Of a stretch of DNA of 15,989 nucleotides, positions 1,801 through 15,989 are shown piece by piece (positions within the stretch are counted from its first letter, which is position 1; each line of letters opens with the position of its first letter). The position numbers and the translations under genes are program-made. The notes below the pieces were generated by a model. It saw only the letters and a list, made by a program, of their open reading frames with translations, was not told where the DNA came from and did not search any database. The stretch is from an uncultured Prevotella sp. (GTDB lineage Bacteria > Bacteroidota > Bacteroidia > Bacteroidales > Bacteroidaceae), in NCBI GenBank assembly GCA_900557035.1, contig USRA01000050.1, positions 1 through 15,989 of the forward strand, written 5' to 3'.

Positions 1801-4266
1801 TTACTGACTCAAATCCTGCCCATCACATCTGTATTTCAGCTTCGTAAAACTGTGATAACTGTTATTGTGACAGTTATCGCTGCCACGTTTCACGTATTTT
1901 CTATAGACCCAGGTAGAAAGCAGATGCGCCGTCCCCTCTTCCGAGAGTCCCAGGGCTGCACGAGCCTCCACCACCTGCTGCTCGGTAAACGTATCCGGCA
2001 ACGACTGGAGAAGATTGGAAGGACCACGCTTGTTGGAATGCTCGCCCACATTGTTCGCCTTCTGGATGTCCTCCTCGAAGAAACGCATCTTGCACCACAG
2101 GTCGTAACGCTCACTCCAGCGGATGAAATCCTCTATTTCCGGCTCCCATCTGCAGCCGTTGGCAACATAGAGCACGCACGCCTTGAGATAGGCTATCACG
2201 TTGGCACGGAACGTGAAGTTCTCGTAGATTCTGTTCTGGGTAACCTGCGAAAAATCCGCATTCTCCTCACTCAGAATCTCAGCCAAGCGGTAAGCCTCGG
2301 GGCAATCTATCAGGCCGGTAGCCATACAGAGGTTCTCGATATAGGGCTTCAGCTCCTTGCGAAACTGATCGTCGTAGGTGCCATACACTGGAATCTTATC
2401 GCCGATTTCTCTTTGGGGAATGGTGCAGAAGTTGATTCGGCTCAGCGGACCGTCGGTCAGCACCTTGGAGAAATAACGCTGTCCCTTCTGGATGGTGGTA
2501 GAGGCATTCCAGTTGAAACGGACGGTTACTCGCTCGGTGACGCTTTGGGTTCCCACTCGTGTTTGTCCATATTGATTACCCGGGTCAAAGGCGAGGCACA
2601 TGATACGGAAATGCTGGTTGCCGATACCTTTCAGGGCATCAAACTGGTCAATCTCGTTGAGCGAAGTATAGAGGAAGTGGCCTTTGGCTTCTGCCGTACG
2701 CATCACGAAGGCAGGGTTGGTCATATCCGCATCTATCTCTTGTATAATGAGATTATCGGGTCTTTTGCGCTTATCCTTGTTGGCACCCTTACGCATCATC
2801 TCCTCTTTCCATTCCTTCTCACGCTTCAGGTTTTCCTGGTCACGCTTACGGATATCCTCCATGATCATCGAAATCGGCATCTGCACACAACTTTTACCTG
2901 CACCTGTGCCTGCAAGGAGGCAGGTCATCAGGGTGGCTTCGTGCTCCACATTGTCGATATATCTGAATCTGGTATTCCAGAGATGGGTAGCCAGCGGAGG
3001 GAAAATGGCGTGTGCCACAGCCGGCTGATAAATCTCCGGAGTCTTGGATACAAGGAGTTCCACGAGCTTGGGAAGCTTCTTGGGCATGGGTGGCGGAGCA
3101 GGATATTCATCTTTGCTACCTTGAACTCGCGACATGGAAACCTGAGCTGTATGATTAGCTCCGCTAGCCTGTTTCTCAGCCGTAGCATTGATACGAATCA
3201 CATCCCTCGAAAACGGCTTGGAGCTATCCCCATATTTCGCATAGAAATCGTGAATCAGCTGATGGCAATCCTTCTCCTGATAATAGCTCGGCATTCTCCT
3301 CGCCACCACCTTCATCAGGTCCTCCTCACTCATCACACGAGAAGCGCCAGCACTCATAATAGCGAGCAGGGAAGAATGCCTTGACCCGATGGTATCGATA
3401 TTCATCCCCTTGAGGCCTGCGGAATCCTGGAAGAGGTCGAAGGCTATGAGATTCTTCTCACTGGCACTTTCTGCTTCTTGGGCTGCCAGTCCGCCAGCTT
3501 TCTGAGAACCTCCAGTATGGCTGATATAATCATCATCAGTACGATGGCTATTACCAGGTTGGGCAGGCTGAATAGCAGCGCCAGAAGGAGTCCCCTTACC
3601 ATCAATCGTAAGCCCACGCTTCAGGAAAGCCTCTCTGCGGGCTTGAATCTCCTCAGCCGGCAACACCCCATACCACTCCTTCGAGCGATAAATCTCGGAG
3701 TCCTTATCCGTGATAAAGATGATTCGCTCCGGCGTGATGCAACTTTTATCGTAGGGAATCCCAGCCGCCTCGCAATACGCCTTCTGCGTCTCCTCTATCG
3801 TCATGCCCATCGGCATGCGGATATCGATATGCAGCTTCTTTCTAGCCGAATACTCCAGATGCAGCAGCTTCCCCTTCCATATCGTGTTGCTGCAGTTCAG
3901 CTCACGAGCCTTCTCCAATGCAGCATCCACATAATCCACATCATCCACATCGATGGTAGTCTGAAAGAGGAAGCTTTCAGGCACCGCATCTTCACTAGAG
4001 CGGTGATTATTCCTGAACTTAGAATAATGAATGGCACGGATAGGCAGCTGTCTTTTCAGCCCCTCGCGTGCCTTCTTCACCGCCTTTTCATCACCAGCAT
4101 CTACGCCGGGGATAGCCTTCTCCCCACGTATCTGCGCAATCATACCCTTCAGCCACGGCTGTGCTATCAGGGTGTCATAGACATACAGGGGCTGGGAAGA
4201 ATTCAATCTTCCCATATTGCCCTTGCGTGCCGGATTTAAAGCCATTACCTGTTGCTTTATCGCCAT
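1801..4266 (-). CDS. DUF3987/VirE-N-like P-loop protein (BT4734-type)
   Basis: This 821-residue protein begins with a region like the VirE/BT4734 N-terminal domain (about residues 25-215), with an acidic FQTTIDVDDVDYVD segment near 101-114 and a LHIDIR segment near 145-150. A polar linker (about 220-275) and a helical region follow, then a DUF3987-like ATPase domain from about 400. Its Walker A is AGTGAGKS (452-459), and the acidic FLYTSLNEIDQFD stretch further on is a probable Walker B equivalent. Bacteroidota proteins of this layout are thought to be primase/helicase-like factors of mobile elements, but the activity is not demonstrated. The gene lies 17 bases after the Bro-N gene and just before the DUF5675 gene. 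The frame is intact. Confidence 0.7.
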   Translation of the reverse strand: MAIKQQVMALNPARKGNMGRLNSSQPLYVYDTLIAQPWLKGMIAQIRGEKAIPGVDAGDEKAVKKAREGLKRQLPIRAIHYSKFRNNHRSSEDAVPESFLFQTTIDVDDVDYVDAALEKARELNCSNTIWKGKLLHLEYSARKKLHIDIRMPMGMTIEETQKAYCEAAGIPYDKSCITPERIIFITDKDSEIYRSKEWYGVLPAEEIQARREAFLKRGLTIDGKGTPSGAAIQPAQPGNSHRTDDDYISHTGGSQKAGGLAAQEAESASEKNLIAFDLFQDSAGLKGMNIDTIGSRHSSLLAIMSAGASRVMSEEDLMKVVARRMPSYYQEKDCHQLIHDFYAKYGDSSKPFSRDVIRINATAEKQASGANHTAQVSMSRVQGSKDEYPAPPPMPKKLPKLVELLVSKTPEIYQPAVAHAIFPPLATHLWNTRFRYIDNVEHEATLMTCLLAGTGAGKSCVQMPISMIMEDIRKRDQENLKREKEWKEEMMRKGANKDKRKRPDNLIIQEIDADMTNPAFVMRTAEAKGHFLYTSLNEIDQFDALKGIGNQHFRIMCLAFDPGNQYGQTRVGTQSVTERVTVRFNWNASTTIQKGQRYFSKVLTDGPLSRINFCTIPQREIGDKIPVYGTYDDQFRKELKPYIENLCMATGLIDCPEAYRLAEILSEENADFSQVTQNRIYENFTFRANVIAYLKACVLYVANGCRWEPEIEDFIRWSERYDLWCKMRFFEEDIQKANNVGEHSNKRGPSNLLQSLPDTFTEQQVVEARAALGLSEEGTAHLLSTWVYRKYVKRGSDNCHNNSYHSFTKLKYRCDGQDLSQ

Positions 4267-5577: not shown

Positions 5578-5736
5578 GCCCCAGACCTCAGAACCGGTAT
5601 CGTTCTGAAATCTGGGGCAAAAGTAGAAAGAATACTCCGTTACGCCTTTTCCGCCGAATGCGCCAAATAGAATTCGGCGGAAACAAGAAAGGGGCAAAAC
5701 CATCATCTTGCCCCTCTATATCAATACTTTATAGAG
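5578..5736. repeat. Cluster of four inverted repeats in the intergenic region
   Basis: Four hairpins lie almost end to end. First, GCCCCAGA (5578-5585) with TCTGGGGC (5611-5618), continued inside by CAGAAC (5589-5594) with GTTCTG (5602-5607). Second, 5648-5659 with 5672-5683 (a 12-bp TTTCCGCCGAAT stem). Third, GGGGCAA (5691-5697) with TTGCCCC (5708-5714). Fourth, CTCTATA (5714-5720) with TATAGAG (5730-5736). The first and third share a GGGGCAAAA motif. They separate the gene ending at 5788 from the antirepressor gene, so some may be terminators; the first overlaps the expected transcription start of the antirepressor transcript. Pairing is directly seen; function is not known. Confidence 0.6.
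5618..5625 (-). promoter_or_regulatory. Promoter -7 box of the antirepressor cassette
   Basis: The minus strand reads TACTTTTG, an exact TAnnTTTG match, immediately upstream of the GCCCCAGA hairpin. Transcription would start near 5612 inside the hairpin, giving a leader of about 220 nt before the antirepressor ATG. No clear -33 box is present. Confidence 0.4.
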
Positions 5737-5787: not shown

Positions 5788-6354
5788 CTATATATTGTGA
5801 GACTTTGCGAAATCCTCCACAAAACCCTCTACCTCATAATCTACATTCCCGTCATTGATCTTCTTTCTGATATAATTGCCATACGACTTTTGGGTAACAC
5901 CCAGTTCCAGATGACAATCATCGTGCAGAAAACGAGTAATGGATGAACCATTAGGAACACCAGCGTTCACATAGCCCTGATTAGACCAACGCTGGAAAAA
6001 CGCCACCACACTCTTGTTCAACAAACCATCGGAAGTGGAAAGCTGACTGTCTGAAATATGATGCAGCTTGAGATATTTCACAAAAGCATCCGCCATCTTC
6101 CCCGTAAGCCCCACATCCTTTTCACCCTCAGGAGTAGAAAAGAGATTCTCGGCACTTCTTCCCGCAGAAGATGAAGCACACTTCACCTTAACACTCTGTT
6201 CAAAAACAACTTCATCGGTATCATTCTTCATTTCAGAAGAATCATCGGAATCCTTATGTTGATGTTCATGACTCTCATAATAGTTCTCTATATAGGTTAC
6301 GGAACCTGCAAAATGGAAATTTCTACTCATCAGTATGTGGTTTTGTGTCTTCAT
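5788..6354 (-). CDS. Hypothetical protein, 188 residues
   Basis: I do not recognise this protein. The start at ATG 6352-6354 gives MKTQNHILMSRNFHF; a second ATG eight codons later (6328-6330) is an equally plausible start. The first 90 residues are polar and acidic (a HEHQHKDSDDSS run near 29-40), probably disordered. The C-terminal half (about 85-170) looks folded and helical, with KMADAFVKYLKLHHIS, VVAFFQRWSNQGYVN and a YGNYIRKKI segment near 160-168. No signal peptide, membrane span or catalytic motif is evident. It stands alone: 316 bases separate it from the gene upstream, and a hairpin cluster follows. The helical C-terminus with basic positions could be DNA-binding, but that is a guess. 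Confidence 0.6.
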   Translation of the reverse strand: MKTQNHILMSRNFHFAGSVTYIENYYESHEHQHKDSDDSSEMKNDTDEVVFEQSVKVKCASSSAGRSAENLFSTPEGEKDVGLTGKMADAFVKYLKLHHISDSQLSTSDGLLNKSVVAFFQRWSNQGYVNAGVPNGSSITRFLHDDCHLELGVTQKSYGNYIRKKINDGNVDYEVEGFVEDFAKSHNI

Positions 6355-6670: not shown

Positions 6671-7126
6671 TTATTTATTTTTAGGCACAAAAAGCTTTTG
6701 GTATTTTGCTATATGTGCTTCCAAATTGTTAAGTTGCTTCAAGTCTCTCGCAAAAGTAATCCACTGCGAAAAAGCTTCATTGAAATTCTTCTCAAACTGA
6801 CTCTTGTCAAACTTCTTACCTTCCGCCGTATGTCGTTTGATCAATTCATCAACGATTCTATCCCAATTATATAGGATACAGCAGCACCATCTTCTCTGCT
6901 GCAAAGGCTGAAGACTTACACTTCTCTTCAGCACTCTGAGCACTGTATCACACTTTATATGCGTGATATTAGAAAACTGATATGCAGATATCTGTTCAGC
7001 TTTGCCACCAATAAATGAATTGAGATACAAGATGATGCATTCTTCCTGTATCTTATCAATTCTTTTGTCTAGCTGAGCTAAATTCTCCAGAATCAACACC
7101 CTTCTATGTTCTGCTATATCCAGCAT
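6671..7126 (-). CDS. Hypothetical protein, 151 residues
   Basis: I cannot assign a family. The protein starts MLDIAEHRRVLILENLAQLDKRI from ATG 7124-7126. It looks mostly helical, with a YLNSFIGGKAEQISAYQFSN segment near 34-53, an unusual Cys triplet in RRWCCCILYNWD near 78-89, and a basic, lysine-rich tail. No membrane segment or signal peptide is apparent. It has its own promoter box (7193-7200) and lies after the terminator that closes the six-gene operon, so it is a separate unit and probably not part of that system. The stretch YQFSNITHIKCDTVLRVLKR (about 49-68) could be a helix-turn-helix-like segment, but the evidence is weak. Confidence 0.55.
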   Translation of the reverse strand: MLDIAEHRRVLILENLAQLDKRIDKIQEECIILYLNSFIGGKAEQISAYQFSNITHIKCDTVLRVLKRSVSLQPLQQRRWCCCILYNWDRIVDELIKRHTAEGKKFDKSQFEKNFNEAFSQWITFARDLKQLNNLEAHIAKYQKLFVPKNK

Positions 7127-7200: not shown

Positions 7201-7257
7201 GGAGGGTATATTTTTCAGAAACGTTAATACTTGAACAAAAATTAACTACAGAATAAC

Positions 7258-7302
7258 AAAAAAAGAGAGAAAGTGAGCATTTTTAGTGCTACACTTCCTC
7301 TC
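7258..7302 (-). terminator. Intrinsic terminator of the six-gene operon
   Basis: Stem segments pair GAGAG (7265-7269) with CTCTC (7298-7302), AAGTG (7271-7275) with CACTT (7292-7296), and AGCA (7276-7279) with TGCT (7287-7290), around a seven-base loop. On the minus strand the stem is followed by seven Us (7258-7264). It begins nine bases after the stop of the coiled-coil gene. Confidence 0.85.
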
Positions 7303-7310
7303 CTCGACTT

Positions 7311-7676
7311 TTATGGATGGATAGGCAATTCTATTACCATTTCCACAGCTCTTGTGAACGACATGAGAGGAGGAATTTTCACCCCAGCGCTTCTCAGATA
7401 GTTCACCAGTTTCTTCTTGCCCCAGTTGATTCTGGAATCTCTTTCACGATAGAGTTCCCTGAGCTGTTTGACATTGGAAGGCAGAGAATCCAGCTTTTTC
7501 TTCAGCTCGGCAGGATCTCCATACCGGGTCATTTCCTCTATTCGAGCCTTCAAGGCCTTGTTCTCCTCCACCAGCTGGTTATAATGGCGGAGCAAGACTT
7601 TTACCTGCTGCTCGTAAGGCAGGTCTTTGTTCATTTCATGCATAAGCATTTCTATTTTAGAATTCCAGGTATACAT
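7311..7676 (-). CDS. Small coiled-coil protein, last gene of the operon
   Basis: A 121-residue protein I do not recognise. Residues about 20-50 form a likely coiled coil (QQVKVLLRHYNQLVEENKAL), followed by a basic helical region, LRELYRERDSRINWGKKKLV near 72-91. The first ATG (7674-7676) overlaps the end of the SF1 helicase gene by 25 bases in another frame. A later ATG at 7647-7649 starts two bases after the helicase stop and would give 112 residues; both imply translational coupling and the sequence does not decide. A strong terminator follows. The small size, the coiled coil and the end-of-operon place suggest an adaptor or regulator of the helicases, but this is inference. Confidence 0.65.
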   Translation of the reverse strand: MYTWNSKIEMLMHEMNKDLPYEQQVKVLLRHYNQLVEENKALKARIEEMTRYGDPAELKKKLDSLPSNVKQLRELYRERDSRINWGKKKLVNYLRSAGVKIPPLMSFTRAVEMVIELPIHP

Positions 7677-9352
7677 CTGTTCAAGTCTGGACTCATCAAC
7701 AGAAGAACCTTACTCTTAGCTCTACTAATCATCACGTTCAGCCTATGTTTCTCCAGAACGAAAGGCAATTGTGCCTCCATACTGCCATAACGGGCATTAA
7801 GCACGAAACTGAGGATAATGATTTCTACATCCTGCCCCTGTAAGCATTCTACTGTATTGATAAGCGGCATCTTCTCCTTAGGAAATTTCGTTTTCCATAA
7901 GGTACGGATGCATTTAACCTGTCTTCGATACGGAGTAACAATAGCAACATCTTTCAGTCGGATACCACCTTGAATGGCTTTCCTAGCCAGCTCTATGGCC
8001 TGCTCTGCCTCCGCTACATTGACATCACATTCCATCTCCATCAATTCGCTCTCTTCAGGAACAACTTCTATTGTCTGTATCGGTTCTTGGGATATCCCTT
8101 CTACATCCAGCCTTCTGTCCTTGGCGGAATCAGCTGATATCAACTTGATCCCATTCTCATCAGACTCATAGAAATTTCTACTGATGAAATCAGTAATCTC
8201 GTCGTTCATGCGATAGGTAACATCGAGAGTATGACGAAGAGTAGGATATCTGTTACAGAGATATTCGAAGATACTTACCGACAACGGATTCTCTGCCAGC
8301 TGCGGATGGAAGATTGGCGGCATCTGCTTATCATCTCCGATGAAAATGATACTACCGCACCCAAAGGCACCAATCAAACTGGCATATGCCAAAGGCATCT
8401 GACCTGCCTCGTCTACCAAAACAATCTTAGGCTTAAAACCTGAGTTTCGTAAACCTAAATGGATGATGGCAGCATGCAGCGTCATACCCACGACATCGGC
8501 TGGAGCCATTCGCTTCTTGCTATTCTTTCGATAAGCAAGATAATTGTTGTAGGTTCCTGCCTTGATTATCTTCTTGTTCAGTCCTTCACCCTTAATCTTC
8601 TCTCCTATTTTCACCACATCGAAATTGCCAGTCTGCTCTGCAATCTTATTCAATGCATTATTTACAGCCTGATGAGTATTGGATATCACCAAAACCTCCT
8701 TGCGCATGGATGCATAGACTTGCGCTATTGTAGAGAGTACCGCCGTCTTACCTGTGCCTGGAGGACCTTGCAAGCAGTAAACGGATGGTCGTTTCAGACA
8801 GTCTACTACCACCCTATTCTGACCTGTGTTGAGTGTTTTAGGTATTGCAACATATCTTGCATCTATAGCACCTAAGCCTTTTGCACGAGGAACATCCTTC
8901 CCAGCCAGCAGATTCAGGAAGCTATACCCAGGATAACCTTCACGGATTCCATCAAGCAATTCGAGCATAGGATCAAGCATCATATGTTCTTGAACTTCTA
9001 TGTCTACCAAATCTTTAACAGATAAGGCTACAGAAGTTTCTATACTCAAGCCATCAAGATAAAGGTCAATAATCTTAGCCTTATCAGAGAAAGAGCAACT
9101 AGAGAGCTTAACGCTATCGCCCACCCTGAGCTTGGTATTATCTTCCGTGGTATGAAGTTCATACTGGTTGTCGCAGACCTTCACCACCAGAGCATCCTTG
9201 ATCAATAAGCCAGCCTCTACTTTTTCTTCATCGGTAAGCAGAGAATTAGCTTCAATATCAGCCAACTCCAACTCTTTTTGTTGCTGCAAATAATCATAGA
9301 TACGCTGGTGCATATCTTCTATTAAATTTTCCTCCATATCTTTATTCTCCAT
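7652..9352 (-). CDS. UPF1/DNA2-like superfamily 1 helicase
   Basis: A 566-residue SF1B-type helicase of the UPF1/DNA2/SMUBP2 group, which unwinds nucleic acid using ATP. Visible motifs: Q motif LNTGQNRVV (174-182), Walker A GPPGTGKT (196-203), the Ia-like SNTHQAVNNAL (224-234), Walker B VDEAGQMP (313-320), motif III GDDKQMPP (339-346), motif IV VTYRMND (378-384), VTPYRRQV (472-479), motif V VECLQGQD (501-508) and motif VI RLNVMISRAK (537-546). The N-terminal 140 residues hold a helical start and a small beta-rich region that may be the accessory barrel. No nuclease domain is seen. The ATG at 9350-9352 overlaps the upstream stop by 11 bases; a second ATG at 9335-9337 has GGAG at good spacing and may be used instead. 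All motifs look intact, so it is probably active. Confidence 0.88.
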   Translation of the reverse strand: MENKDMEENLIEDMHQRIYDYLQQQKELELADIEANSLLTDEEKVEAGLLIKDALVVKVCDNQYELHTTEDNTKLRVGDSVKLSSCSFSDKAKIIDLYLDGLSIETSVALSVKDLVDIEVQEHMMLDPMLELLDGIREGYPGYSFLNLLAGKDVPRAKGLGAIDARYVAIPKTLNTGQNRVVVDCLKRPSVYCLQGPPGTGKTAVLSTIAQVYASMRKEVLVISNTHQAVNNALNKIAEQTGNFDVVKIGEKIKGEGLNKKIIKAGTYNNYLAYRKNSKKRMAPADVVGMTLHAAIIHLGLRNSGFKPKIVLVDEAGQMPLAYASLIGAFGCGSIIFIGDDKQMPPIFHPQLAENPLSVSIFEYLCNRYPTLRHTLDVTYRMNDEITDFISRNFYESDENGIKLISADSAKDRRLDVEGISQEPIQTIEVVPEESELMEMECDVNVAEAEQAIELARKAIQGGIRLKDVAIVTPYRRQVKCIRTLWKTKFPKEKMPLINTVECLQGQDVEIIILSFVLNARYGSMEAQLPFVLEKHRLNVMISRAKSKVLLLMSPDLNRCIPGILK

Positions 9353-11546
9353 TAAGTAATTCGCGTACGTAAGCCCTTGTTTCTTCGTCCTTAATATAGA
9401 TGGTTACACCTTTGATAGCTCGGGTTAGAAGAATGCGATAGGCTTGGGCTACGGTTTCGAACAATGTATGGGCTGCTGGAAAACGAGGATCAAAACCAGG
9501 AACCTCGTCTATATCTTTCATCTTACCCTTAATGAACTTGTTTCGGATAGCTTCCTTCTGCTCGTCTCTAGCACGTTTGCGAGAACTGGCTGTTGCCGTT
9601 TCTTCATTGTGCTTGATACTCACATACCATTTGCCATTTCTAACGTAAACATCCTCTAGCCACAGCAATCCTACATAGTCAAAATCAAAGCCTCTTACTA
9701 CATACGGACAGCCCACTTCCGAAAGAGGATCCTGATGCATCATAGAATTTCCTGCACCCTGCACATAGATAGCATAGCCATTCGGATTATTCCAATATCG
9801 CTGCCAACGCTTTCCATTCTTATCAGCTAAATCGAAATCGAAGTCAGCATCCGCATCATGCAAAGGAGCCAAATTGCTCATTGATTCCCATTTGCGAGTA
9901 TAAGAAGAAAGAATTCGGCAAGATTTATCGCCTCCTACCATTTGAGCCCGGATATCAGCTTCCATATCTGAAGGGTAATCCACAACCTTTACTTTGAATT
10001 TATACTTCCACTTTGTAACGTTCTTCAACGGATTCTCAGTAAACAGGCCGTCAATCCAATCTACATATTCCTTGGAACCGGCACAACGGAACTGCATATC
10101 CTCAAGAGAAATAAGCGTAAACTCAGCACCCAGTTTTTTAGCCCATCTTTCTATATCCTCTATTTTTGTAGACTCATTGTCTCGGAAAGACTGCTTACCA
10201 TCGGTAAAGAATATGCTCACCTGGCTTTCACGGATGATATGGTACACCTGCGGTCCCATCTGAAAGCACCAGCCAGCAGTTTTGTTGCTACTAAATCCAT
10301 CTGCAACAGGATTAATCAAAGCATGCGCCTCGTCGACAACTGAAAGAAAATGAAGGTTATCCTTATAATTTCTAGTCATATCATGTTCTATCATATAATC
10401 AAGATAATCTTCAAAATACTCATACTTGAGAGAATTTTCATTATCATCACTCACGTATTTTGGATCAATCTGTTCCATCAATGGCAACAATTCATTTTTC
10501 ATTCTGCCACCACTCATACCAGGATTGAAATCATTGGCTTTCAATATTAAATCAGAAGCATGATATTGGTATCCATAATAATTGAAGATTTCACTCCAAT
10601 TATCACTCTGGCTTCCCGATGTCGTCACAAACACGATATTGCCGCAATCCTTCTTTTTAGAGTGTTTCATGACGCTTTCTATCCAGAGATTGATGGCTAC
10701 GGCAGATTTACCTGATCCCGGAGGACCCTGCACCACAATCACTTCCTTCTTGCCATCCTTCACTCTCTGCTCCAAAGTCTGCATCACAAGGTTAAAGCCC
10801 AGACGCTGCTCATCAAGCAACACGAAAGGACGAGCCGTAGCAGAATTTGCACTCAGGTTTTCGGCAACCTGGCGCAAGATGTTTCTATCCTGCTTGTAAT
10901 AGCCATTTACAAAACTGGCAGCAAAAGCCTGGTCACCCTTGCAGATTTTGGATGTTACATACTCAGCCAGATTGTCTGAAGAATCTTTATTATACATCGG
11001 ATACTCTGAAGTAAGCTGATCATTAGGTGCCTGGCGGTAAGGCTTCAAATCGATAGGTTGCGTAAAATATACACAGCCATTTACCTCAGCTCCTTCATCG
11101 AGCACCACAGAATGGAATCTTCTGCAATATTCGGTATATCCCTTAACCTGGTCGGCAGGATGCTTGATCACGCTTCCCTTATGTATCATCAAGCCTTCAT
11201 AAGAGCCTGGAGCATCATTGGGATTTTCCAGATAGTTTTTCAACTCCACGATGATCACCTCTTTCCTGTTCTCCTCGTTGGCACCCAGCAATACCAAGTC
11301 GCACCAAGCCGATGCAGCAGGGAGCTTATATTCAAGCAGCAACTCTGTAGTAGAGATATGGGCATCGCCAATAGCCGGCTGCTTCTTCATAGCTTGCACC
11401 AACATATCTGCCACCACAGGATAAGAACCAGCATAGGCCTTCTTCTCCTCGTCACTCACATAACGAGTGATGCCAGCCACCTCGTCTATCAGACCATTGA
11501 GATCATCCTGGACATAACCACAAAATTCTCTAACTGTGTATAGCAT
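9342..11546 (-). CDS. PD-(D/E)XK nuclease fused to DUF2075 helicase (copy B)
   Basis: A 734-residue fusion. The N-terminus shows a PD-(D/E)XK-like nuclease core: E72 (LLLEYKLP), D83 (AWCDLVLLG), E101-L-K103 (VIIVELKNY), then a HPADQ motif (129-133) as seen in related nucleases. The DUF2075 helicase part has Walker A GPPGSGKS (274-281), Walker B VVDEAHAL (403-410), motif III-like FFTDGKQSF (446-454), QFRCAGSKEYVDWID (485-499) and a late LLTRAIKG (706-713). It is a diverged paralogue of the product of 12025-13872. One difference stands out: where copy A has TCQGLEFEYVGV, this one reads VVRGFDFDYVGL (616-627), replacing the conserved Gln with Arg. It lies 32 bases after the EVE-like gene and overlaps the SF1 helicase gene by 11. 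A nucleic-acid cleaving and unwinding role is inferred from motifs. Confidence 0.82.
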   Translation of the reverse strand: MLYTVREFCGYVQDDLNGLIDEVAGITRYVSDEEKKAYAGSYPVVADMLVQAMKKQPAIGDAHISTTELLLEYKLPAASAWCDLVLLGANEENRKEVIIVELKNYLENPNDAPGSYEGLMIHKGSVIKHPADQVKGYTEYCRRFHSVVLDEGAEVNGCVYFTQPIDLKPYRQAPNDQLTSEYPMYNKDSSDNLAEYVTSKICKGDQAFAASFVNGYYKQDRNILRQVAENLSANSATARPFVLLDEQRLGFNLVMQTLEQRVKDGKKEVIVVQGPPGSGKSAVAINLWIESVMKHSKKKDCGNIVFVTTSGSQSDNWSEIFNYYGYQYHASDLILKANDFNPGMSGGRMKNELLPLMEQIDPKYVSDDNENSLKYEYFEDYLDYMIEHDMTRNYKDNLHFLSVVDEAHALINPVADGFSSNKTAGWCFQMGPQVYHIIRESQVSIFFTDGKQSFRDNESTKIEDIERWAKKLGAEFTLISLEDMQFRCAGSKEYVDWIDGLFTENPLKNVTKWKYKFKVKVVDYPSDMEADIRAQMVGGDKSCRILSSYTRKWESMSNLAPLHDADADFDFDLADKNGKRWQRYWNNPNGYAIYVQGAGNSMMHQDPLSEVGCPYVVRGFDFDYVGLLWLEDVYVRNGKWYVSIKHNEETATASSRKRARDEQKEAIRNKFIKGKMKDIDEVPGFDPRFPAAHTLFETVAQAYRILLTRAIKGVTIYIKDEETRAYVRELLNGE

Positions 11547-11578
11547 AAGCCTTTATTTCTTAAGATTGTTATTTACTA

Positions 11579-12028
11579 TTATTCGTTTTCCAGTGCATCA
11601 TAGATGATTTTTCTCTTGAGCAGATAATCCTCATCCGATAATTCATCTATGGATGCTTGCATCAATTCTTCAAATTTATCATCAATTTCAGATGCTGTCG
11701 ATATGTCAAAAAGACGCGGGTATTCATCTCCTTCTTCACTTAACTCTAGGGATGGATATTTGCTCAACAACAAGTCATCCGAAATTTCCATATTCTGTAC
11801 GGCCATCGTGTCACAGAAGATCTCACCATCGTCAGCTATCCATGCATCCAGTCTTGAAATAGAGAGGCGATAAAGCAATCGTGCCCCATATTCAAGCGTG
11901 GCAATAAAAACAATATCACCTCGCTTCATTTCATCCAGCTGAGGAAGATACGCTGTCCCGGAATGTTCTATCATATCAACCACCGAGAAGGTATCTGGCT
12001 CATCCAGTATGTATATCCAATATTTCAT
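11579..12028 (-). CDS. Small EVE/PUA-like protein
   Basis: A 149-residue protein with an N-terminal part that resembles EVE/PUA-like folds: it begins MKYWIYILDE, followed by LDEMKRGDIVFIATLEYGAR (about 32-51), with the KRGD turn before a beta-strand typical of such domains, then LLYRLSISRLDAW. EVE domains can read modified bases in DNA or RNA. The C-terminal 60 residues are strongly acidic and helical and may mimic DNA or bind a partner. I prefer the ATG at 12026-12028, which overlaps the upstream TGA by four bases (ATGA), over an ATG two codons earlier. It sits between the two DUF2075 nuclease-helicases, so it could guide or license them. The EVE assignment is by eye and is the least secure of the operon calls. 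Confidence 0.5.
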   Translation of the reverse strand: MKYWIYILDEPDTFSVVDMIEHSGTAYLPQLDEMKRGDIVFIATLEYGARLLYRLSISRLDAWIADDGEIFCDTMAVQNMEISDDLLLSKYPSLELSEEGDEYPRLFDISTASEIDDKFEELMQASIDELSDEDYLLKRKIIYDALENE

Positions 12029-13872
12029 ACCCATTGTTTTATGTAATTTCTAAGTTCTTCGTCGCAGACATAAACGTAACAGCCCTTCATACCTCGGGTC
12101 ATCAGCGTGCGGTAGGTGTTCTTAATTAGAGCTCGCAGCTTGTCATGGGTAGATTCCCTGTCTTCCTGCTCCATCTTTTTCCACCCCCAGATACTGCGAT
12201 CATTAGAAGACCTTTTAGAAGGATTTACTTTAATAATGCCATCTCTATAGACCAAGTCTTCTCCGATGATGACTCCTACATATTCGAATTCCAATCCTTG
12301 GCAAGTATGAATACAACCAATCTGATCTACCGAACCTTTTGATATGCTCCAAGTATCATCATTAGATAGATTCCATTTGTAGGCAAAATCATCACCTATG
12401 ACAATATCTTTCTGATGACTGTTCTTTCTGGAATTCCAATCCCAGCAATAACCTGCAACCATTCGGCTTTTATTCTTATATCTATTCAGCTTCTTGATTT
12501 CAGCCATCATTTCCGAAGGAGAATCAAAAATCTTGAATTCATAGGTAGTGCCGCTTAACTTCATTGGGAGCAGATTGTTATATTGCAGAAGATGATCGAG
12601 CCAATTCAAATACTCATCGCTTCCCGAACAACGAAGCTGTACTGTCAATTGATGATGATGCACATCAGCCTGCTCATATTCAGCCCAAGCCTCGATTGCT
12701 GCTACCGAGCCAATATCCCTGAAATCAACCAATTGTTTTTCGTCAATGAAAAATACGCTTACTTTTGCAGCCAATATGATTTCCTTGATCTGGTTCTCAC
12801 CCAGATTACCATAACGACCACTAAACTGCTGCAAGCGATGAGCCTCATCTACGATCAGCATATCCAGTTCGTTTACCTTCTTATCAAAATATCCCCCACT
12901 TGATTTAAAAAGATTTTTGATGGAAGAATGAACATCTTTTGATTCCATAAACTTCTTATAGAACACATTTCTTGGAGCACTGTTTTTAGATACATAATGA
13001 GCCAGCAACTTTCTTCGTGTCATCTCAACCAACAACTTGACAGCAATCACACTCTTGCCGGTTCCCGGTCCGCCCTTCACGATAACCACCTGTTTTCTTC
13101 CAGTTCTAAGATATTCGTCATAAGCCCAGAGAATGTTCTGATAAGCCACTTTCTGCTCATCAATCATCTTGAATTCAGGCTTGCCTTGTGCCATTTTAAC
13201 AACACTATCTATCAAGCTCTTGGAAGGTGCAATCTTGCTGTTTTCCACAACATAGATAGATTTATTCTGGTCACTCTTACAAACATATGTAGTGATAAAT
13301 TCTCTCAGCTTATCTTCTTCGCCCTTGCAGAATACAGGAGCCTTCTGGGTGTATTTCTGATAGCGGGCATCAGATATGCTTCCGTCATCCACATAATTGT
13401 GCATAAACACACAAGGATGCAGACTTACCTTTCGCTGCTGAACCGCCTCCTTAAAATCATAGAGAAGAGAAGCATAGCAAGCCACCTGATAACTGGGATG
13501 GGTAGTCTCCTTCAACCCATCTTCATAATGGGTTACCACCAGTCCATCCTTCTCTGTAGCCTGAACATGCTGCCATTGTTTCAACTCTATCATAACAACA
13601 TTGGATTTTTCTTCGCTATCCAATCCTGTTATGATAAAGTCAATACGATTATTGGTTACGGGAATATTATATTCCAGGGCTATTCCCGTATCATCAGGAA
13701 TTACCTGACTATCTACAACCTTCGCCATAAATCTTAACGAATTATGCCAGGAGCGAATTTCACCTTCACTCGTATCCTCACCCATTTTGGCCTTTACATT
13801 GGATGACAATATGCCTTCAATGTGGGGGATATCATTCAGGAATCCCCTTTTGGTATTGTTATAGATAATCAT
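12025..13872 (-). CDS. PD-(D/E)XK nuclease fused to DUF2075 helicase (copy A)
   Basis: A 615-residue nuclease-helicase fusion. Nuclease core: E67 (ALEYNIP), D78 (NNRIDFIITG), E96-L-K98 (VVMIELKQW), and THPSYQ (124-129). DUF2075 helicase motifs: GGPGTGKS (267-274), LIVDEAHRL (339-347), FFIDEKQLVDFRD (374-386), QLRCSGSDEYLNWLD (412-426), TCQGLEFEYVGV (523-534) and MTRGMKG (591-597). All are intact, so both activities are plausible. I chose ATG 13870-13872 because GGAG lies eight bases before it and MIIYNNTKRGFL fits the family start; the open frame extends to a TTG nine codons earlier that lacks support. The gene follows the TPR gene by 35 bases with no promoter box, and overlaps the EVE-like gene by four. 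DUF2075 proteins are usually annotated only as ATPases of unknown role. Confidence 0.85.
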   Translation of the reverse strand: MIIYNNTKRGFLNDIPHIEGILSSNVKAKMGEDTSEGEIRSWHNSLRFMAKVVDSQVIPDDTGIALEYNIPVTNNRIDFIITGLDSEEKSNVVMIELKQWQHVQATEKDGLVVTHYEDGLKETTHPSYQVACYASLLYDFKEAVQQRKVSLHPCVFMHNYVDDGSISDARYQKYTQKAPVFCKGEEDKLREFITTYVCKSDQNKSIYVVENSKIAPSKSLIDSVVKMAQGKPEFKMIDEQKVAYQNILWAYDEYLRTGRKQVVIVKGGPGTGKSVIAVKLLVEMTRRKLLAHYVSKNSAPRNVFYKKFMESKDVHSSIKNLFKSSGGYFDKKVNELDMLIVDEAHRLQQFSGRYGNLGENQIKEIILAAKVSVFFIDEKQLVDFRDIGSVAAIEAWAEYEQADVHHHQLTVQLRCSGSDEYLNWLDHLLQYNNLLPMKLSGTTYEFKIFDSPSEMMAEIKKLNRYKNKSRMVAGYCWDWNSRKNSHQKDIVIGDDFAYKWNLSNDDTWSISKGSVDQIGCIHTCQGLEFEYVGVIIGEDLVYRDGIIKVNPSKRSSNDRSIWGWKKMEQEDRESTHDKLRALIKNTYRTLMTRGMKGCYVYVCDEELRNYIKQWV

Positions 13873-13880
13873 GGTAAGTT

Positions 13881-13884
13881 CTCC
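13881..13884 (-). promoter_or_regulatory. Shine-Dalgarno deciding the start of nuclease-helicase copy A
   Basis: GGAG on the minus strand, eight bases upstream of the ATG at 13872. Clear Shine-Dalgarno sequences are scarce in this window, so it is informative: it favours the ATG over the upstream TTG at 13897-13899. Confidence 0.6.
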
Positions 13885-13907
13885 GATTGTTATTATCAAT
13901 TACTAGT

Positions 13908-15929
13908 TTATTGATTGCCCTTTTTCTTCTTCCACATTTCCTGAGCTGTAGCCCAGGCTGTATCGAATGGAAGTCCCAGGGATGCCAGCATCTCTGGTAT
14001 TGCCAATGCCCAGCTTACATAATAGTAGGCCAAGAGCTGATAGCCACCAAAGTCTTTCTCCGGAATAGAAGGAACTTTGTAGCCACTCTTCTTGTCCGGT
14101 GAAATGCCAGTAGTACCAATCATAGCGATTTCGAAAGCAATCTTCTTGATTTCCATCTTATCCATACCATCGAAATACTCCAGTGCACCCAACATATACA
14201 TAGACATCATCATGGTCTTCATCGGGTCTTCACCATCCTTGTTCTGGGCATAGAAATCATCCTGATTCTTTTTCTGCTCTTCAGTCAGACCATCAAAGGA
14301 GTTTCCACCAGCAGGGGCATCCTCGCCCAGCGCAGCATCACGCATAGCCTTGGTTTTCTCCATTCTATCGAAGCTATCATCGAAATAGTCAGACAACGGC
14401 AAGATTGACATGAATCTTTCGGCATGGAGAGAATCCATAAAATACTCTACCAGCTCATACTCCTCGCCCGGTTTGTAGTCATCATAAGCAAGGAATTCAT
14501 CGCAGAAATCCTTTGCCTGATCAAATTGAGCTCTTGTAGGCTTATACTCCTGATAGAATCTCAAACCGAAGAGATGCTCGAAATGCATTGAGGTAACAAT
14601 ATTCATCACCTTGCTGTTCTGTACAATATCGAGTGGAACGAATTTTGAATTTTCAGAGCCTTTTATCGCCTTGATATTGTAGGTTTCCTGCTCCATCAAC
14701 GACAATAACTGAATAGCCCTAACAATAGGATACTTATCATACATCCGCTTTTCCACGAACAAATCCAGAGGGCAGTTCATCACCTGGAGCATATATCCTC
14801 TATGAATCTGCTCTACCAGATTCATTGCCTTGGAATGCTCAAAGCGATTCACCAATTTCTTGATCCAAGCAGCATATTTGGTTCTGAAAGCTATGACGTT
14901 ATCATTGTTTGAAATGATGACCTTATTGTTGTTCACCTTATCTGCCTCCAAATTCATCTGAAGGTGCATCATTTCATGGATAGCGAGATGCTCCATAAAA
15001 GGCTTCTTAGGATTATACTTAATAAGATGATAATCACGATGATGGGTTGGTCCATATTCCAGCTTAGCAGAAAGATCGAGAGTATCATCCTTCACGATTT
15101 CTATCTTCTGGTTATATTTCATCTCTATCTCATCCTTGATGCCCAGAACCACGTTCATATAGTTGGTAGACTCTACTACGGCGTGAGCTGAAGCCAGCAT
15201 AATCTTATGGAGTTCATCCATTACCTGAGGATTCTCTGAACGGATATTAGCCAGCAGGCAGCCCTTCAAGGCTGTATCAAAAGCCTTCTGATTTTCACGC
15301 TGATTATAATAGCAAACAGCCAAACCATAATAAGCGTTTGCATATTTCTTATCACCTTCCAATGATTTCTCGAACAAAGGTATAGCACTTTCATAATCCT
15401 CGTTTTCCATCATCAAAGCTGCAACATTATTGATGGCGATGAAGTTATCTGGTGAATATTTCAGCACGCTATCATAGTAGGTACGTCCAATCTCATAGTT
15501 GTCTTTATACTTACTATAGAGGTTACCCATCAGAATTAATGCCCAAATATTCTTAGGATTACATCTCAAGGCCTCAATATCGATATCAATTGCCTTATCG
15601 ATATTGCCTGCCTCCATCTCCATCTGGGCAAGAATACGATAACCCTCACTATGGCGTGAGTGCTTCTTCAGGAATTGCTCCAGGCGGCTATGTGCTTCTT
15701 TGAATTGGCGTTTTTCACAGAGCGCTGTAATCTCATTGAATTCTTTCTGAGATTGCTCTAAATCTTTTTGGTCAACTTTTACTTTTACGAAATCTCCATC
15801 GATGGTTACTTCTGCTGAGTATCCATCCACGGTATAGTAGGCTAAGAGTTTGTCTCTCAACTCTTCAGGAGAATGGGCTTCAAATACCCCCCCAGCCCGT
15901 CCGAGAACGGCCGTTTGGGGGTGTATCAT
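13908..15929 (-). CDS. TPR protein with HEMMH zincin-like motif
   Basis: About 673 residues from ATG 15927-15929. Tetratricopeptide-like repeats span roughly residues 58-225, with NPKNIWALILMGNLYSKY, SPDNFIAINNVAALMM and KYANAYYGLAVCYYNQ giving the usual spacing. The central domain carries HEMMH (318-322), an HExxH zinc-binding motif, in a helix (HLAIHEMMHLQ), and a Glu in LFVEKRMYD (about 394) is a candidate third ligand, 72 residues on. The C-terminal third is acidic, then helical and Met-rich near residue 575, ending KKKKGNQ. TPRs bind proteins, so a regulated metallopeptidase is plausible but unproven. It is the first visible gene of the operon. The start is uncertain: a GTG at 15948-15950 is in frame, and a TTG at 15858-15860 would skip a hairpin and G-tract whose translation looks like non-conserved repeat. 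Confidence 0.75.
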   Translation of the reverse strand: MIHPQTAVLGRAGGVFEAHSPEELRDKLLAYYTVDGYSAEVTIDGDFVKVKVDQKDLEQSQKEFNEITALCEKRQFKEAHSRLEQFLKKHSRHSEGYRILAQMEMEAGNIDKAIDIDIEALRCNPKNIWALILMGNLYSKYKDNYEIGRTYYDSVLKYSPDNFIAINNVAALMMENEDYESAIPLFEKSLEGDKKYANAYYGLAVCYYNQRENQKAFDTALKGCLLANIRSENPQVMDELHKIMLASAHAVVESTNYMNVVLGIKDEIEMKYNQKIEIVKDDTLDLSAKLEYGPTHHRDYHLIKYNPKKPFMEHLAIHEMMHLQMNLEADKVNNNKVIISNNDNVIAFRTKYAAWIKKLVNRFEHSKAMNLVEQIHRGYMLQVMNCPLDLFVEKRMYDKYPIVRAIQLLSLMEQETYNIKAIKGSENSKFVPLDIVQNSKVMNIVTSMHFEHLFGLRFYQEYKPTRAQFDQAKDFCDEFLAYDDYKPGEEYELVEYFMDSLHAERFMSILPLSDYFDDSFDRMEKTKAMRDAALGEDAPAGGNSFDGLTEEQKKNQDDFYAQNKDGEDPMKTMMMSMYMLGALEYFDGMDKMEIKKIAFEIAMIGTTGISPDKKSGYKVPSIPEKDFGGYQLLAYYYVSWALAIPEMLASLGLPFDTAWATAQEMWKKKKGNQ
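15884..15926. repeat. GC-rich hairpin with seven-base C/G tract at the 5' end of the TPR gene
   Basis: ATAC (15884-15887) pairs with GTAT (15923-15926), five Cs (15889-15893) pair with five Gs (15917-15921), and CCGT (15897-15900) pairs with ACGG (15907-15910). The C7 run (15887-15893) is a G7 tract on the coding strand. The element is far more GC-rich than the neighbouring coding sequence and resembles an interspersed palindromic repeat or an upstream terminator. It overlaps the annotated 5' end of the TPR gene, which makes that start doubtful. Confidence 0.55.
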
Positions 15930-15989
15930 AGAGGGCAGAACCGCTATCACGACTCCACCTAAGCCCCTCTAAGGGCATATCTTTTTTCA
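15930..15989. other. Window edge, upstream of the TPR gene
   Basis: No gene or clear TAnnTTTG box is visible here. In the TPR frame a TAG at 15969-15971 closes the frame upstream, so a long N-terminal extension is excluded. The operon promoter, if close, must lie beyond the edge or be non-consensus. Confidence 0.5.

Follow-up and report, generated by a model that had tools for sequence, protein, structure and literature searches.

Two nuclease-helicase modules form a putative acquired defence locus in an uncultured Prevotella

The locus described here lies in a stretch of 15,989 nucleotides from an uncultured Prevotella sp. (contig USRA01000050.1; hereafter, the window). It consists of six genes, g1 to g6, and shares parts with several described systems. 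Human group-III Schlafens are antiviral. They belong by Pfam name to the Schlafen-group-3 helicase family, PF09848 (DUF2075 in older annotation), as do g2 and g4. PDC-S41 is a computational phage-defence candidate in PADLOC, and its code presumably stands for a single gene. Menshen is, as we take it, composed of NsnA, NsnB, and NsnC together. In CoCoNuT type IV restriction, a UPF1-like helicase, coiled coils, a YTH-like domain, and PD-(D/E)XK nucleases recur, according to parts of PMC11090510. For the EVE-domain systems, parts of PMC7641849 give as partners a SWI2/SNF2 helicase-nuclease, a COG1743 methyltransferase, and DUF499; the words UPF1 and MazG are absent from its main text. Similarly, the main text of a BREX survey (PMC12839542) does not contain the words TPR, tetratricopeptide, zincin, or MazG. 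Finally, MazG appears among the predicted, unvalidated defence domains in parts of the DefensePredictor study (PMC13092281).

We consider it likely that the locus was acquired horizontally and acts against phages or other mobile elements through two nuclease-helicase modules, A (g1 and g2) and B (g3 to g6). The PADLOC scan covered eight minus-strand proteins of the window. The PDC-S41 model was matched by g2 (1.1e-18) and g4 (1.5e-8). Unlike this single-gene candidate, the window pairs two paralogues with a putative tetratricopeptide repeat (TPR) peptidase, a tentatively EVE/YTH-like protein, and a helicase of the UPF1-like kind. Compared with CoCoNuT, as far as parts of PMC11090510 describe it, the window also has a UPF1-like helicase, a coiled coil, a tentatively YTH-like protein, and PD-(D/E)XK nucleases. 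However, the matches listed for the eight proteins include no McrB or McrC, those listed for g5 include no SmpB-like domain, and the window adds Schlafen-type nuclease-helicases and the TPR-peptidase. The likeness to the EVE systems, in those parts of PMC7641849, is a stand-alone, tentatively EVE-like protein whose gene shares an operon with that of a helicase-nuclease. With BREX, the link is a g1 relative that immediately precedes brxA in another genome (locus L147), whereas the eight window proteins show no BREX match (no BrxC/PglY or PglZ). Menshen differs as well. Only a weak match to NsnC (4e-6) was found among the eight proteins, in the ORF 6671-7126 (151 amino acids), beyond the operon terminator.

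The six consecutive open reading frames (ORFs) lie on the minus strand, between an end that resembles an insertion sequence (IS) on the right and a terminator on the left. An earlier note on this DNA had described six minus-strand genes with short overlaps and gaps, and the ORF coordinates agree. The gap between g1 and g2 is 35 nt, g2 and g3 overlap by 4 nt, g3 and g4 are 32 nt apart, and the overlaps g4/g5 and g5/g6 measure 11 and 25 nt. The strong terminator at the operon end was borne out too (7255-7305, minus strand). Its stem of 18 pairs (7262-7305) leads into a U-run, and its folding energy is -23.5 kcal/mol, against -12.1 (standard deviation 2.46) in shuffled sequences (z -4.63; none of 200 shuffles equal it). 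It is missing from the list of a simple scan. Two further strong terminator-like hairpins lie on the minus strand outside the operon, at 5578-5618 and 881-916 (17 and 16 pairs).

The g1 product (13908-15950, minus strand) was expected to be a TPR protein with an HEMMH motif. Pfam confirms the TPRs, and the motif is present. In the structure model (pLDDT, the model confidence score, 84.8), an N-terminal α/β domain is followed by the TPR array and then by strands and helices with the HExxH and a conserved DxxxE. The HExxH is kept in 26 of 27 ORFs of the g1 family, and D396/E400 of g1 are conserved in 21 of 22 alignment rows. The exception is L164 in both cases, where the candidate third ligand (D396/E400) is lost along with HExxH. 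With HExxH and a candidate third ligand, g1 is read here as a putative zincin-like peptidase. It matched no PADLOC model.

The next gene, g2 (12025-13872, minus strand), encodes a PD-(D/E)XK nuclease and Schlafen-group-3 superfamily 1 (SF1) helicase. Its start is placed at an ATG, where the relatives begin; the first possible start is a TTG at 13899. PF09848 matches g2 with 333.7 bits and g4 with 174.8 bits (curated cut-off 24). Both proteins show the two marks of a Schlafen-group-3 nuclease-helicase: PF09848 with Walker A and B, and the nuclease residues E-D-ExK at the N-terminus, the latter as aligned residues. The two PD-(D/E)XK-DUF2075 nuclease-helicases of the earlier note are thus present, with a nuclease motif that was assigned by eye and that no Pfam nuclease model matched.

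Relatives of g1 and g2 recur in a cassette with a MazG-like gene (PF12643). The g1 family was followed in 29 loci (L115-L118, L145-L164, L165, L166, L172, L173, and L247); four further places in the phylum sample and a plasmid match, H4, lie outside this set. The MazG-like gene stands beside g1 in nine of them (L115, L116, L117, L118, L145, L160, L165, L166, and L247). After this MazG a PF09848 gene follows, directly or one gene on, in 7/9, the exceptions being L117 and L166. Among 149 relatives there are four g1 matches. MazG adjoins g1 in all four, and a PF09848 gene adjoins too in three. From the 395-genome phylum sample, 20 g1 loci were retrieved, and two of these have both MazG and PF09848. 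Viewed from the other end, loci with a PF09848 gene of the window type have MazG directly upstream in seven of nine cases, and one gene further in an eighth (L222, which coincides with L160).

The cassette also occurs on mobile DNA. We found g1 and MazG together in the three records examined: one plasmid each from Hymenobacter and Marivirga, and a Microcystis record classed as a phage. On the Marivirga plasmid, both g1 and g2 are broken into several ORFs, by decay or by sequence errors. In the Microcystis record (L247, PP438423.1), g1, MazG, and g2 are all open and consecutive. The g1-MazG-g2 cassette recurs in Bacteroidota and on a Microcystis element. The latter record, of 22 kb, also carries a ParA-like gene and a gene for an SMC-type ATPase, and it may be a plasmid-like element. 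The open-access literature that was searched (titles and the beginnings of abstracts) gave no description of this cassette. Within that scope, the word undescribed, applied by the earlier note to the whole operon, is fair for the cassette.

In the window, g1 and g2 are adjacent on the same strand, as in the cassette, and the gene between them is missing. No match to the relatives' MazG was found when the window was divided into 424 six-frame fragments and searched with maximum sensitivity and all filters off. Because MazG is absent in any frame, the window locus is, by its sequence, a variant and not a full member of the cassette. The earlier note had overlooked both this absence and the IS-like end in the start of g1. 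PF09848 alone was rejected as a marker of the cassette. From its 40 matches, 30 loci were fetched, and 21 of these reach little or no score against the g2 profile and lack a MazG within their short flanks.

Some relatives show further features. An S24/LexA-like peptidase domain lies in, or just after, relatives of g2 in L116, L118, L120, L168, L245, and L246, which hints at self-cleavage or damage-linked control. The Schlafen-group-3 helicase of the g1-MazG cassette in L145 (6644-8335) has an N-terminal weak match to GIY-YIG, just under the curated cut-off, an apparent nuclease swap. On a Priestia plasmid, MazG-g2 occurs with an MrcB_N gene and adjoins genes for an N-6 methylase and a subunit S. 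In L117 (15652-16332 and 17704 onwards), from another species, the g1-MazG pair is likewise close to a Bro-N gene and to an ORF related to the window's 821-amino-acid ORF, as in the window; the two loci possibly share a carrier element.

Module B begins with g3 (11579-12028, minus strand), a small protein of 149 amino acids with 20 homologues. It matched no Pfam family, and a sequence search of solved structures gave a best E of 0.22. In VIA-align, the best 50 rows for its low-confidence model consist throughout of matches to folds of the YTH, ASCH, and EVE types. Among them are VcaM4I, a restriction enzyme, and THYN1; that some of these entries are EVE proteins is our assumption. We propose with low confidence that g3 is an EVE/YTH-like protein (PUA superfamily), predicted to read modified bases. 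The EVE/PUA label of the earlier note stands to this extent. The second nuclease-helicase, g4 (9342-11546, minus strand), is deeply diverged from g2 (25% identity). It groups with a homologue from the Victivallales (Lentisphaerota) in L012 (support 1.0, 36% identical); L245 was left out of this tree. The helicase g5 (7652-9352, minus strand) was correctly recognized as UPF1/DNA2-like. Pfam gives AAA_11/AAA_12, helicase motifs are present, and the nearest solved structures by sequence are DNA2, SMUBP-2, and UPF1. The last gene, g6 (7311-7676, minus strand), encodes 121 amino acids. Several coiled-coil families match it, all below the curated cut-offs, and its description as a coiled-coil protein holds only at that level.

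Two g5 homologues, P0106 and P0118 (836 amino acids), have a C-terminal extension of about 270 amino acids in which no Pfam domain was found; a RecB-like DYKT motif was seen by eye in P0106. The g3 homologues P0134 and P0137 share their listed longest-contig sizes with the g5 homologues P0026 and P0027. This agreement is a hint of g3-g5 linkage and no more; a g1 homologue, P0245, likewise lists 10,891 for its longest contig. A genome scan with the g5 alignment was set aside because generic SF1 helicases swamped it, and among the matches listed (L001-L105) only L012 showed another operon component.

The earlier note took the six genes as one system. The evidence points instead to two modules, g1 and g2 (usually with MazG in relatives) and g4 and g5, probably with g3 and g6. 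The searches returned parts of the set in other genomes, and all six genes in none of them. The nearest rival to our reading has most of its content in common with it and differs on the cooperation of the modules. In this explanation, g1-g2 and g3-g6 are two independent defence systems that happen to be neighbours within a defence island and are transcribed together. We judge it almost evenly balanced, leaning slightly to the negative. It agrees with the occurrence of g1-MazG-g2 with no g3-g6 nearby (L116, L118, and L247), and with L012, where the g4 homologue is followed directly by that of g5, with no g1-g2 (the contig ends inside g5). The deep separation of g2 and g4 in the tree agrees as well. 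On the other hand, in L115 a g5 relative (36% identical) comes directly after g2, giving a run g1-MazG-g2-g5, and a g5-type helicase can thus accompany module A. In the archaeal plasmid L169, a UPF1-like gene lies two genes before MazG-g2. The tight border between g2 and g3 also argues for a closer relation.

The g1- and g2-type genes are rare, and their distribution is patchy. At 1e-40, a sample of 395 Bacteroidota genomes gave g1 in 21 and PF09848 in 40. Besides the plasmids and the Microcystis element, a scan of viral contigs with g1 found two loci, L172 and L173, both with no MazG; the same scans with g4, g2, and g3 gave no relatives, and g3 had no match in plasmids.

Some relatives of g1 are close to known immunity genes. 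In L147, one lies 15 nt before brxA-brxB-brxC-x-x-pglX. In L146, it shares the strand of an SNF2/DrmD-like helicase and a type IIG enzyme, and in L148 it is beside a type III restriction-modification (R-M) system. McrBC is near it in L166, GmrSD in L160, and Mrr and HsdR in L173, while BrxC/PglZ/DndA lie on the other strand in L172. In total, at least seven of the 29 g1-family loci have known systems close by (BREX, McrBC, GmrSD, Mrr, R-M), counted from chosen neighbours and leaving out L154 and L149 (helicases only). Such loci were what the earlier note had proposed to look for. The TPR-HExxH gene of L147 (8148-10127; next gene from 10143) is the first gene of an apparent BREX operon. A protein near the g1 relative in L154 (8981-11062) matches the PADLOC PsyrT model over its full length (3.7e-269).

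We compared these neighbourhoods with control stretches. The neighbours, drawn from 23 of 24 loci, were 103 of 104 listed proteins of at least 200 amino acids lying no more than 5 kb from g1 (L161:1-873 omitted), excluding ORFs with more than 50 bits on the g1, MazG, SLFN-g3, or UPF1 profiles. The controls were 110 of 112 proteins from arbitrary stretches (13 of 15 requested) in 13 of the same genomes (L185:1-1446 and L187:3413-4327 omitted). At 1e-20, the neighbours matched 145 PADLOC models and the controls 16, counts of overlapping models and not of loci, which make a contrast and not a statistic and to that extent weaken the case for defence. The control matches include the GajB (UvrD-like), RtcR, DpdF, and PsyrT models, which in our judgement can also be matched by housekeeping helicases and regulators. 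From this context, the putative defence role of the locus is well supported. The earlier claim of a defence operon stands for patchy, plasmid-borne genes beside BREX, McrBC, GmrSD, Mrr, and R-M, and not for the unity of all six.

The insertion site agrees with an acquired island. To the left of the operon lie, in order, the ORFs 6671-7126 and 5788-6354, a Bro-N/KilAC gene, the 821-amino-acid ORF (1801-4266), a DUF5675 gene, and the gene for ribosomal protein L13, with an L13-Bacteroidia ribosomal leader upstream of it (Rfam RF03127, 561-636, 70.3 bits). The 821-amino-acid ORF has no Pfam match; a first label, DUF3987, was dropped for this reason, and the ORF is left unclassified. The L13 end of the window is 98% identical to the nearest genome. 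To the right of L13, that genome has the 821-amino-acid ORF and Bro-N (84-93% DNA identity) until its contig ends, and g1, g2, and g4 were not found in it at the thresholds used. In seven other genomes, the 4.7-20 kb beyond L13 contain unrelated genes, and the other genes of the window are missing there; the stretch in an eighth was not long enough to judge. The site beside L13 thus varies between genomes, which fits an acquired island; the earlier note had suggested checking this.

The right end of the operon bears on whether this copy still works. Positions 15888-15989 are 99.0% identical over 102 bp to a stretch of the Segatella copri plasmid NZ_CP137558.1. There, the matching stretch has a fimbrillin gene on one side and, on the other, a transposase gene of the IS1182 family, the 3' end of which lies some 107 bp further inward. 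Together with the match of the L13 end to the nearest genome, this plasmid match makes a Segatella/Prevotella source likely. No inverted repeats of 14 nt or more joining both ends of the plasmid IS were found, so the boundary rests on match, position, and annotation. Most likely, 15888-15989 is the end of an IS1182-family insertion sequence that interrupts g1 near its start. For near-identical DNA of the window, the phage collection gave nothing and the plasmids only this IS-like end. The two possible g1 starts that agree with the earlier note's coordinates, at 15950 and 15929, fall inside it, and the first 21 or so codons of the ORF would therefore be IS sequence. Many g1 relatives start with about 20 residues of the pattern M..IIH..NDFLFELFP, which is missing from the window g1. 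The g1 of L118 keeps most of the N-terminal domain. The closest relatives, L115-L117 (45-47% identical), are without the entire domain, so its loss need not by itself disable g1. The IS probably cuts the operon off from its original promoter region in the source strain. The operon may then not be expressed at all, be transcribed by read-through from the IS, or have only module B left.

A further rival explanation is that the locus is a decaying remnant which no longer protects the source strain. It is possible, though rather on the doubtful side. The replaced g1 start and the lack of any MazG trace fit it. Against it, the six ORFs are apart from this uninterrupted and retain their motifs, the g1 ORF continues into the IS, which offers possible starts, and some g2-type relatives have no adjacent MazG either. 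Moreover, sequence collections commonly contain near-identical versions of g5 (98%; its cluster has 504 member sequences) and of g3 (96-98%).

A module for repair, replication, or recombination of a mobile element is improbable: DNA2/UPF1-like and RecB-like activities also serve repair, Bro-N/KilAC and DUF5675 genes are next door, and cassettes occur on plasmids, but g1 relatives co-locate with BREX and restriction genes when compared with control stretches, an EVE/YTH-like partner suits recognition better than repair, and the Pfam scan of g1-g6 gave no integrase or replication-initiation match.

The reading of a two-module defence locus has to carry several other observations that weigh against it. 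The full six-gene set was found in no other genome searched. MazG is not beside g1 in 20 of the 29 g1-family loci, many of which have no recognized defence gene, and it is not directly upstream of g2-type genes in L166, L167, L168, and L223 either. The structure search with g1 falls mainly on the TPRs and does not confirm a zincin fold; the model also puts strands before the HExxH helix. The fold of g3 depends on a model with pLDDT 63.4 and on Foldseek matches with E of 0.1 or more. The genome searches, in which only a small number of candidates was scored for each genome and an independent positive control was lacking, found g4 in none of 149 relatives, 295 genomes of the order (1e-40), or 46 other genomes of the order of L012, and g5 in none of 349 genomes of the family (1e-90). 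Module B is rare, or it was missed by the first-look filter of these searches. Lastly, with an IS at the g1 start, this copy may be inactive.

For the two-module defence locus, we infer a mechanism that concerns its trigger, the target of the peptidase, the substrate (DNA or RNA), and the cooperation of the modules. Invading nucleic acid would be recognized through the EVE/YTH-like g3, or through abnormal ends or structures. Then, g5 and the helicase domains would translocate along it, and the PD-(D/E)XK domains would cut it, with g6 as a coiled-coil linker in module B. The TPR array of g1 may sense a protein or nucleotide signal, and its peptidase would activate or inactivate a partner, thereby setting a threshold for the toxic nucleases. 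The MazG-like enzyme of the relatives probably adjusts a nucleotide signal or pool; the window locus either lost it or never had it. A broader proposal seems unlikely to us. It holds that the TPR-HExxH protein is a general proteolytic switch which Bacteroidota and others use in many nucleic-acid immune systems (BREX, McrBC, R-M, MazG-Schlafen cassettes). Here it would gate a composite system of two Schlafen-type nuclease-helicases, an EVE/YTH-like reader, and a UPF1-like helicase against modified phage DNA or RNA. The locus would then be a relative of Schlafen immunity under proteolytic control, and a distinct type of defence system.

The locus points to a mobile cassette of a putative TPR-peptidase, a MazG-like protein, and a nuclease-Schlafen helicase, which ranges from Bacteroidota to a cyanobacterial element and adjoins known immunity genes. 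A g1-like component also stands next to BREX, which raises the question of whether a protease switch is common to several bacterial immune systems. Finally, the bacterial PF09848 relatives bear on the origin of the Schlafen helicase family.

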